Virus record (IMG/VR): IMGVR_UViG_3300010970_000072
Coordinates: 1-27,172 of that record
DNA from: a virus
Reading direction: 5' to 3' (one strand)
Length of the DNA: 27,172 nt
Shown: piece after piece, positions 1,261 to 3,625 of the stretch
Layout: each line of letters begins with the position of its first letter
Numbering within the stretch: position 1 is the stretch's first letter
Made by a program: the position numbers and the translations under genes
The notes under the pieces: model-generated
Databases searched by the model: none
Told to the model about the DNA's origin: nothing
The model's input: only the letters and a program-made list of their open reading frames with translations

Positions 1261-1595
1261 GCGATTCAATAGAAAAGCTTACAGAAGCAACTGGTATTAA
1301 AAAGGCAGTTGAATTATTTAGCGAAGTAACAGGTATAGATTGCGGATGCGATGAAAGAAAGGAAAAGCTTAATAAAATCTTTCCTTACAAAAAGCCTAAT
1401 TGTTTAAATGAAACGGATTACAATTATCTAAAAGATTTTTTTGAAAGAAATCCAAGCCAAATTACTCCAATAGTACAAAGAGAATTGTCGGCTATTTACA
1501 AGAATATCTTTAATGTAAATCTTGAAGCTACTTCTTGTGATTCGTGCTGGAGAGATTACATTGGACAAATCAGAAGAATTTATAACGAATACTAA
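1233..1595 (+). CDS. conserved phage protein with CxC and CxxC motifs
   Basis: A 120-residue protein that starts inside the sigma-like gene (28 nt overlap) and ends on the start codon of the next gene. Residues 9-45 include 'SIEKLTEATGIKKAVELFSE' and then CGCDERKEKLN, a sequence type I recall from Bacteroidota phages near the terminase. Cys37 and Cys39 (CxC), with Cys102 and Cys105 (CDSC), could form a four-cysteine metal site. That is inference from spacing only. The C-terminal half is helical. Position between a regulator-like gene and the packaging genes suggests a packaging or regulatory role, but no function can be assigned. Confidence 0.6.
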   Translation: MGKRKSQGLGDSIEKLTEATGIKKAVELFSEVTGIDCGCDERKEKLNKIFPYKKPNCLNETDYNYLKDFFERNPSQITPIVQRELSAIYKNIFNVNLEATSCDSCWRDYIGQIRRIYNEY

Positions 1596-1855
1596 TGGAA
1601 GATAAGAAAAGAGGAGGCTATCGTGAAGGAGCTGGCAGAAAGTCAAAAGCTGAAGAGCAATCTTTAGTGGAAAAATTAACTCCATTAGAGCCAAAGGCAT
1701 TTGAAGCATTAGTTGCTGCATTAGAAGACCATAAGGATTGGGCAGTGAAACTATTTTTTCAGTACAAGTTTGGTATGCCAAAGCAAGTTATTGACCAAAA
1801 TACTACTCATACGGTAAACGACTTTGACATTCGAGAGATCGTGAAGTTTAAATGA
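1595..1855 (+). CDS. probable terminase small subunit
   Basis: An 86-residue protein directly before the (interrupted) large terminase gene. Its N-terminus has the basic GGYREGAGRKSKAEE segment (residues 7-21), typical of the DNA-contacting start of small terminase-like proteins in many phages. This is followed by helical material (LTPLEPKAFEALVAAL and the WAVKLFFQYKFGMPKQ helix at about 49-64). It is short for a small terminase, and no classical helix-turn-helix is clear. The stop codon is embedded in an ATGATA sequence (1852-1857) that is repeated at the start of the large terminase, which suggests the two genes originally overlapped before the HNH gene was inserted. The call rests on position and the N-terminal motif. 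Confidence 0.55.
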   Translation: MEDKKRGGYREGAGRKSKAEEQSLVEKLTPLEPKAFEALVAALEDHKDWAVKLFFQYKFGMPKQVIDQNTTHTVNDFDIREIVKFK

Positions 1856-1896: not shown

Positions 1897-2412
1897 ATGG
1901 AAATATGGAAAAAAATTGATGGCTACCAAGGCTACGAATGTTCTAATTTAGGAAGAATTAAAACATTTAATTGGAAAAATACTGGAAGAGAAGCAATAAT
2001 GAAACCAGCTTTAGATGGTTCAGGATATTTGCGAACGGTATTAAAAAGAAGCGATGGCAAATTATGTACAATAAAAGTGCATAGAATAGTATTACAAACT
2101 TTTAATCCAAATTCAAATTGTGATATTTTAGAATGCAATCACAAAAATGGCATTAAAAATGACAATAATATTTTAAATCTTGAATGGGTAACAAAAAAGC
2201 AGAACTTGCAACACAGTAAAGATAATAATTTGCAATATGTTTTAAGGGGAGAAGAAGTTGGAAACTCTGTTTTGACTTCAATTAAGGTGCTTGAAATAAG
2301 AAGTAAATTTATTCCAAGAAAGTATTCAAGAACAAAGTTAGCAAAAGAGTATGGTGTTTCTGAAGCAACAATAAAAGATGTACTTTATAAAAGAAGTTGG
2401 AAACATATATGA
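1897..2412 (+). CDS. HNH homing endonuclease (NUMOD4-HNH-HTH type)
   Basis: A 171-residue protein with three recognisable parts. Residues 1-45 form a NUMOD4-like module (EIWKKIDGYQGYECSNLGRIK). Residues 60-115 form an HNH_3-like nuclease core with VHRIVLQTFNP, ECNHKNGIKNDN and LNLEWVTKKQNLQHS. Residues 130-171 contain a repeat-type DNA-binding helix-turn-helix (RTKLAKEYGVSEATIKDVLY). Such proteins cut a specific site in related phage DNA and spread their own gene. It lies between the small and large terminase genes. Its stop overlaps the terminase start as ATGA, and ATGATA repeats flank the cassette. Whether it is free-standing or part of a degenerate intron cannot be decided here; I see no convincing intron core in the 39 nt before it. 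Confidence 0.9.
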   Translation: MEIWKKIDGYQGYECSNLGRIKTFNWKNTGREAIMKPALDGSGYLRTVLKRSDGKLCTIKVHRIVLQTFNPNSNCDILECNHKNGIKNDNNILNLEWVTKKQNLQHSKDNNLQYVLRGEEVGNSVLTSIKVLEIRSKFIPRKYSRTKLAKEYGVSEATIKDVLYKRSWKHI

Positions 2413-2414
2413 TA
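2409..2414 (+). repeat. ATGATA direct repeat, right copy
   Basis: Second copy of the hexamer at 1852-1857. Here it provides the ATG of the large terminase frame and the TGA stop of the HNH gene. Confidence 0.45.
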
Positions 2415-3625
2415 AATATTAACAAAAAATATATCCCCCTGTTTAGCGAAGATAGCAGATACTTCGTTATAACGGGGGGGCGATAAGTGGGAGCGGTAAA
2501 TCGTTTGCCCTAAACTCATTTCTTTTGCTTCTAACATACGAAGTTGGGCATACAATACTATTTACTCGTTACACATTAACATCAGCTCATATCTCAATTA
2601 TTCCAGAGTTTGTGGAGAAGATTGAAATGGCTGATTTGCATAACGACTTTAGCATAACAAAAGATGAAATTATAAACTTGCGTACTGGTAGCAAGATTTT
2701 ATTCAAAGGAATCAAGACTTCTTCTGGTACTCAAACTGCAAACTTGAAATCATTACAAGGAGTAACTACTTGGGTGCTTGATGAGGCAGAAGAATTAGTT
2801 GAAGAAGATGTATTTGATAAGATTGATTTGTCGGTGCGTAATTTCTCCAAGCAGAATAGAGTTATTCTTATTTTAAATCCGACAACAAAAGAGCATTTTA
2901 TTTACTCAAGATTCTTTGAGCAAAAAGGAGTTGAAGCTGGAGCTACAATATCCAAAGGAGATACGACTTATATCCATACTACCTACTTGGATAACAAAGA
3001 ATATCTTTCGGAATCATTTCTTAATCAGATTGAGCAATTAGAAAAAAACAATCCTAAAAAATACCAACATTCAATTCTTGGAGGCTGGCTTGACAAAGCA
3101 GAAGGTGTAGTATTTACTAATTGGAAATTTGGAGCATTTAATCCAGATAACTTACAGACATCATTTGGACAAGACTTTGGATTTAGTATTGATCCAACAA
3201 CATTGGTAGAAGTGGCGATTGACAAAAGCAAGCGCAAGATTTATGTCAAGGAGCATTTGTACAAGCCAAAGCTTACAACTTCAGAAATTGCAGTTATAAA
3301 TAAACAAGTATGCGGAGGCAATTTAATTATAGCTGATAGTGCAGAGCCAAGACTAATTGCAGAACTTCAAAGTCAAAGATGTAATATCCAGCCAACAGAA
3401 AAAGGAGCTGGAAGCATTACGGCTGGTATTGCCTTAATGCAAGACTTTGAAATAGTTCTTGAGCCTAATTCAATGAATGTAGCAAAGGAATTTAATAACT
3501 ATATTTATTCAGATAAGAAATCTGGATTAGTAATAGATAATTTTAATCACGCTATTGATGCAATTAGGTACAATGTATTTTACCATTTATCTAATCCAAG
3601 CAAAGGTCAATACTTTGTGTATTAG
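2409..3625 (+). CDS. terL: terminase large subunit, frame broken at the P-loop
   Basis: ATP-driven DNA packaging motor and nuclease. The frame from ATG 2409 encodes 25 residues ending RYFVITGGR before a TAA at 2484-2486. The rest of the protein continues in the -1 frame to TAG 3623-3625. A -1 shift on the G run (2474-2480) gives VITGG then AISGSGKS, which fits the P-loop pattern [AG]-x4-GK-[ST]. Downstream are Walker B (VLDEAEE, Asp codon 2780-2782) and the three RNase H-like nuclease acidic motifs: QDFGFSIDP (Asp 3173-3175), IADSAEP (Asp 3335-3337) and AIDAIRY (Asp 3557-3559). Starting at ATG 2525 instead would lose the P-loop. Causes could be a true mutation, a homopolymer assembly error or programmed frameshifting. 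A 5-nt insert (TAAGT) between GGR and GSGKS is another reading. Confidence 0.88.
2435..2478 (+). other. imperfect hairpin with C5 and G-run arms over the terminase frame break
   Basis: The arm 2435-2451 (CCCCCTGTTTAGCGAAG) can pair with 2462-2478 (CTTCGTTATAACGGGGG) across a 10-nt loop. The inner six pairs (one G-U) and five outer C-G pairs are separated by isolated mismatches. The 3' arm is the same G run at which the terminase frame breaks. It could be an RNA element affecting translation, a recognition structure, or coincidence of the coding sequence. Folding energy was not computed. Confidence 0.4.
2474..2480 (+). other. G7 run: site of the -1 frame change in terL
   Basis: In the upstream frame the codons read ACG GGG GGG CGA TAA, so the phase is G_GGG_GGG, a legal -1 slippery heptamer, and a stop follows one codon later. 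Slipping back one base yields GGG GGG GCG ATA AGT GGG AGC GGT AAA TCG and restores the P-loop. An eighth G in the real genome would give the same protein without slippage. Confidence 0.6.

Follow-up and report, generated by a model that had tools for sequence, protein, structure and literature searches.

A stop-containing gap in the P-loop of phage large terminase genes, conserved among metagenomic contigs and probably crossed by translational bypassing

The large terminase gene (terL) in a 27,172-base IMG/VR virus record (the whole stretch analysed, hereafter the window) is interrupted inside its P-loop by five bases that open with a stop codon, and related genes in 22 other contigs are interrupted at exactly the same codon boundary. 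Comparison of these sequences leaves little doubt that the interruption is real and conserved, and full-length large terminase is probably made from such genes by programmed translational bypassing. The parts of the window on which the argument rests are as follows.

1595 to 1855, plus strand: small terminase-like gene in the terS position, assigned by position and conservation in relatives; no Pfam match
1897 to 2412, plus strand: putative free-standing homing endonuclease gene between terS and terL (Pfam NUMOD4 3.1e-10, HNH_3 1.3e-8); nearly all intact relatives have this junction without it
2409 to 2483, plus strand: terL 5' segment of 25 codons ending VITGGR, the "block" that is diverged from the nearest intact genes
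2434 to 2480, plus strand: predicted mRNA stem-loop with its 3' end just before the take-off codon (minimum free energy, MFE, -25.9 kcal/mol for 2424-2483)
2481 to 2483, plus strand: CGA Arg codon, the proposed take-off codon
2484 to 2488, plus strand: five-base gap UAAGU, stop codon first, delimited by alignment with intact and other interrupted relatives
2486 to 2488, plus strand: AGU, the proposed landing triplet, the last three bases of the gap
2489 to 3625, plus strand: remainder of terL from GSGKS, with ATPase and nuclease domains (Pfam Terminase_3 5.1e-28, Terminase_3C 2.1e-18)

The terL start codon (ATG, 2409) overlaps the end of the HNH gene, and, as stated in the original prediction, the first 25 codons end in VITGGR and run into TAA at 2484 with the rest of the protein in another frame. 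A run of seven Gs (G7, 2474-2480) is followed by CGA (2481-2483) and TAA (2484-2486), and GSGKSFALNSF begins at 2489 in a different frame that stays open up to 3625. Together the two segments correspond to a terminase with ATPase and RNase H-like nuclease domains, whose Walker A motif is whole only if the five bases are left out. Two ways of joining them had been worked out correctly beforehand: dropping TAAGT links GGR directly to GSGKS, and GGAISGSGKS results if reading slips by -1 within the G run.

A scan of viral contigs returned 80 close terL relatives, a set that was enlarged by further scans. The P-loop is uninterrupted in most of the 80, reading VITGGRGSGKSFAL, and ten of them carry the identical break, GGN CGA TAAGY GGG. 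The further scans brought the 5-nt class to its full size and turned up L299, and a later one, for TGG with a CGN codon and then a stop-like triplet behind it, added more forms at the identical boundary, giving 23 interrupted contigs (the window plus 22, these from 19 metagenomes) in three classes: gaps of 5 nt in 14 contigs including the window (CGA/UAAGY, the slash marking the start of the gap), of 6 nt in five (CGA/UAACGN) and of 7 nt in four (CGC/UGANCGN). The 6-nt class comprises CGA TAACGT GGC (L299, L403 and L410), CGA TAA CGA GGA (L407) and CGA TAA CGG GGG (L408), and the 7-nt class CGC TGA A CGA GGC (L402 and L405), CGC TGA C CGA GGC (L406) and CGC TGA C CGT GGT (L409). The 5-nt form looks like the 6-nt form less one C. 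In 23 of 23 contigs the gap directly follows an Arg codon and opens with a stop codon (UAA or UGA); where it is 6 or 7 nt long, two CGN Arg codons flank the stop. Skipping the gap restores GGR-GSGKS in every contig, whatever the gap length. The CGA take-off codon is invariant in the 5-nt class, an invariance to which shared descent contributes; among intact relatives only 6 of 199 use it. L252, a contig outside these classes, carries one additional base at the identical P-loop boundary (CGA A GGC; locus base 3000) behind a moderately stable upstream hairpin, and represents either a fourth variant or an independent lesion or assembly error.

Since GGR-G is found at identical spacing in 199 of 200 distinct uninterrupted relatives, positions 2484-2488 are an insert relative to intact genes. 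Alignment with related terminases had been proposed as the way to choose between the two joins, and the intact genes read GGR-GSGKS, not GGAISGSGKS, and lack the TAAGT bases, which bears out the suggested insertion. An undercounted eighth G or other assembly error in the window contig, also raised at the outset because a homopolymer adjoins the break, is by contrast hardly credible, as the break recurs in the 22 other contigs with different neighbouring bases, several of them having GGGGGT or GGGGGGT in place of G7. The nearest isolate phages, of Nonlabens (61% identity), Riemerella, Leeuwenhoekiella and Bacteroides, infect mostly Flavobacteriia and have uninterrupted terminases where inspected; no isolate in the collections searched carries the interrupted allele. 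Among GTDB genomes, 95 stretches matched the 5-nt form, none a terminase on inspection, and 397 genomes related to Flavobacterium piscinae gave only one weak partial match to an intact terL query.

Between them, the three gap lengths put the downstream segment into every possible phase, and one type of event, whether a -1 slip, a +1 slip or readthrough, therefore could not serve all of the interrupted genes. Stop-codon readthrough was rejected because in the window and in 18 of the 23 contigs the sequence beyond the stop is out of frame. Ordinary -1 programmed frameshifting at G_GGG_GGG, producing GGAISGSGKS, draws on the presence of G7 just 5' of the stop in some of the interrupted genes, the window's included, but we consider it unlikely: the run is replaced by GGGGGT in L048, L065, L066 and L070, leaving no conserved slippery heptamer, the net shift differs between homologous sites, a -1 slip is unable to serve the in-frame 6-nt forms or the 7-nt forms, and it would add two residues to a loop of fixed spacing. 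Programmed recoding of the packaging motor, one of the readings first put forward, thus finds support as a hop over the gap and not as a slip at G7. Internal restart was also rejected, there being no ATG, GTG or TTG in the downstream frame ahead of the P-loop, and restart at AUA would not match the reading phase of the 6-nt forms. A group I or II intron was discounted on the 5-nt size of the insert and the lack of an Rfam match in the window.

We therefore prefer a hop to a -1 slip, given that the slippery run is unconserved and the relatives with 6- and 7-nt gaps require another net shift, and we think it quite probable from the comparative evidence that ribosomes do hop over the gap. The ribosome would translate 25 codons up to the CGA Arg codon and then encounter the UAA stop; the peptidyl-tRNA-Arg would detach and re-pair just ahead of the Gly codon with which the P-loop continues. 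Such a hop of 5 nt (6 or 7 in the relatives) would produce the canonical GGR-GSGKS loop in the peptide YIPLFSEDSRYFVITGGRGSGK, where a -1 slip would instead give GGAISGSGK. In bacteria CGN codons are generally read by tRNA-Arg(ICG), which is assumed to hold for the host. For this tRNA, the in-frame triplet around the stop that would re-pair best is the one immediately 5' of the Gly codon at which reading resumes: AGY (5-nt class) offers 2/3 pairs and CGU (L299) 3/3, as compared with 0-1 for the remaining triplets of that frame. When the gap is 6 or 7 nt long, take-off and landing codons are both CGN, and the landing codon could simply be ancestral. Only two of three positions match in the window's AGU, and this imperfect landing in the 5-nt class is a point against bypassing.

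A strong stem-loop is predicted immediately upstream of the gap. When the 60 nt ending with the take-off codon were compared with 1000 synonymous versions in 19 interrupted members, all 19 had such a structure (MFE -18.6 to -27.4 kcal/mol) and none of the 1000 versions was equally stable for any of them. The mean MFE is -23.0 for interrupted genes against -8.9 for 170 intact relatives, and dinucleotide shuffles give z scores of -2.4 to -3.9 for interrupted genes as compared with 0.3 to -1.1 for three intact ones; for the window hairpin z is -3.3 to -3.9. The structure is made by synonymous codon choice (CCC, GGG) within a conserved peptide. Conservation of this peptide would suit a nascent-peptide stimulator of the T4 gene 60 kind, but the peptide also belongs to the enzyme. 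Covariation is slight (two compensatory pairs in A1, none in the broader set), and consensus folding of 18 sequences retains only the outer stem because the inner stems are out of register between sequences. The stem-loop behind the take-off codon probably refolds as the mRNA exits the ribosome and so drives or directs a short forward slide; part of its 3' arm would still lie within the ribosome at take-off, which would fit a motor like that proposed for T4 gene 60. Two intact genes, L300 and L320, combine an uninterrupted P-loop with a GIY-YIG or NUMOD4-HNH gene at the junction and 5' hairpins unusually stable for intact genes, and possibly represent states before gap gain or after gap loss.

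The hairpin could also act as the recognition element of a tiny splicing or editing reaction of a new type that removes the insert from the RNA before translation, which would likewise restore GGR-GSGKS for every gap length. We rate this as quite improbable, a little below frameshifting, since it leaves the stop directly after an Arg codon at the start of the gap unexplained and the window contains no Rfam intron or other RNA family. We know of no intron as short as this insert.

Another rival holds that the terminases are dead, being either recent casualties of endonuclease cleavage or genes of defective phages that use a helper's terminase. Indels clustering at a single boundary beside endonuclease genes, and the different, single-base indel of L252, are what this would predict, but it is improbable in view of the selection on these genes: both terL segments are under purifying selection (pN/pS among interrupted members is 0.27 in the upstream block and 0.24 in the segment after the gap), no interrupted lineage has lost the open downstream frame, and the sequence 5' of the gap is specifically structured. 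Nor was a second terL found in the records of 30.5 kb (L077), 32.2 kb (L075) and 35.7 kb (L406), in which the interrupted copy is the sole terL. With gap-free relatives and selection on both segments, the gene corresponds to one protein encoded in two segments split by untranslated bases, as expected under bypassing.

The interruption is associated with endonuclease genes. A small terminase-like gene lies directly 5' of terL in most intact relatives, and in the window the intervening gene (1897-2412) has HNH catalytic and NUMOD DNA-binding motifs above the Pfam cut-off. Junction endonucleases of interrupted lineages are of three kinds: NUMOD4-HNH_3 (the window, L075 and L095), GIY-YIG (L102 and L299) and a second HNH-like family (L402/L405, L403/L410, L406 and L409), in which L402 matches Pfam NUMOD3 with a sub-threshold HNH and L403 has no match. 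An endonuclease is present at the junction in 9 of 21 interrupted lineages as compared with 3 of about 200 intact ones (L320, L300 and L267), with a Fisher p of 2e-8 that serves as a guide only because the lineages are not fully independent. A simple motif check of relatives of the endonucleases elsewhere found no comparable interruption.

The interrupted state is patchily distributed. In a FastTree phylogeny built from the downstream part of 215 terL sequences, 14 rows are interrupted and require at least 12 changes of state, a number that weakly resolved branches may inflate. Eight interrupted genes, each compared with its nearest intact relative, are 37-41/60 identical in the upstream block and 86-95% identical downstream, while the window and L077 share 63/65 positions of the block and are 67% identical beyond it. 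The terL of L077 looks recombinant, with ~95% identity to the window through the 5' block and ~80 bases into the resumed frame, then 67-85%. L223 (the contig of L095) differs from L224 and L225 by an endonuclease gene between terS and terL and a diverged first block, after which identity is ~93%. This patchy block with its sharp boundaries is indirect evidence that the HNH enzyme of the window may cleave alleles that lack its gene and spread by homing. The spacer between terS and the HNH gene (1853-1896; GATAGGGTGTTGC...TTGAAAA) is conserved in L075 and L223 and perhaps marks the left boundary of the inserted element. In L402 the endonuclease frame, some 90-770 bases 5' of the point where terL resumes, opens with a stretch resembling a terL N terminus (MTEALTVNIHPKYQVLWHNKSRYY), which suggests that the endonuclease gene entered terL itself and that the present recoded N-terminal block is a second copy.

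Block boundaries that coincide with recombination breakpoints would also suit a role of the hairpin and insert at the DNA level, as an endonuclease target or a recombination or packaging site, with the frame regained by low-level, non-programmed slippage. We judge this very unlikely, as the matched Arg codons and the stop opening each gap are translational features and an essential motor protein would hardly depend on chance slippage. Rather, with programmed bypassing as the probable means of translation, the insert and recoded 5' block probably persist as a shield of the P-loop DNA against endonucleases settling between terS and terL. The P-loop would be a dependable target for such enzymes because the protein sequence there cannot change, and the insert a dependable shield because it is invisible in the protein. 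Block and endonuclease would spread jointly, the endonuclease often being lost afterwards. That protection is the reason for the insert seems to us rather better than an even bet; the case is indirect, since fewer than half of the interrupted lineages have an endonuclease and three bearers have an intact terL.

The closest precedent is T4 gene 60, in which a 50-nt gap lies near the MobA homing endonuclease and may protect against cleavage (PMC5009743, PMC3014915), and in which a 5' stem-loop is proposed to complete its pairing as the mRNA exits, pulling the ribosome forward (PMC5009743, PMC11194080). Both are phage genes split by a translation-stopping insert; in both, the take-off codon has a stop immediately 3' and a stem-loop 5' (predicted in terL), a homing endonuclease gene lies upstream and an anti-cleavage role of the insert is proposed. 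They differ in the gene (terminase vs topoisomerase), gap length (5-7 vs 50 nt), take-off codon (Arg CGN vs Gly GGA) and landing, which is imperfectly matched in the 5-nt class of terL, and the terL case spans many lineages and three gap lengths, known so far from sequence. Synthetic stop-hops in Escherichia coli cover nine bases, a stop with a codon for the same residue on each side of it, and yield one amino acid (PMC5009743). The 6-nt terL forms (CGA UAA CGN) have exactly this layout, but are natural rather than constructs. A 2016 review lists few natural bypasses and no natural in-frame stop-hop (PMC5009743), and names the Hau3 terminase as a bypassing candidate, with a UUA codon at its centre and a suggested regulatory role (PMC5009743). 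As far as descriptions can be compared, Hau3 shares with our genes a proposed bypass in a phage terminase, whereas the review does not describe for it a pair of Arg codons on either side of a stop or a connection with endonucleases. The mitochondria of Magnusiomyces capitatus likewise have short inserts skipped during translation, the byp elements, at 81 sites; these are said not to depend on mRNA context, and their take-off and landing codons do not always match perfectly (PMC5009743). They differ from phage terL in using mitochondrial ribosomes. Endonucleases near phage terminases are common, and the terL intron of ICP1 with its adjacent T5orf172 endonuclease is a case of collaborative homing (PMC10448857). 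That terminase is also interrupted, with the endonuclease beside the N-terminal segment and outside the insert, but there a self-splicing intron leaves the RNA, whereas the window insert is far too short for any known splicing mechanism. It is the fixed P-loop, the gene 60/MobA precedent and the ICP1 case that lead us to suggest that a homing-linked block carries a short programmed bypass. A search of open-access literature found no later report of terL bypassing of this kind; the trait is easily overlooked because gene callers report such terminases as truncated.

We put at about even the chance that the whole picture is right, namely a family of natural stop-hops in which a hairpin assists a 5-7 nt hop between Arg codons over a stop inside an invariant P-loop, and in which the insert with its recoded 5' block and three kinds of endonuclease forms a home-and-rescue cassette. 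Efficient natural bypassing outside mitochondria has so far been essentially a matter of one gene, T4 gene 60. If true, the terminases would provide a second natural kind of bypass, much shorter and widespread, that includes the first natural in-frame stop-hops and offers in its three gap lengths a ready-made mutational series. It would also mean that bypassing has been used repeatedly to lodge DNA in an unchangeable protein motif, and would tie translational recoding to phage-phage competition via homing endonucleases.
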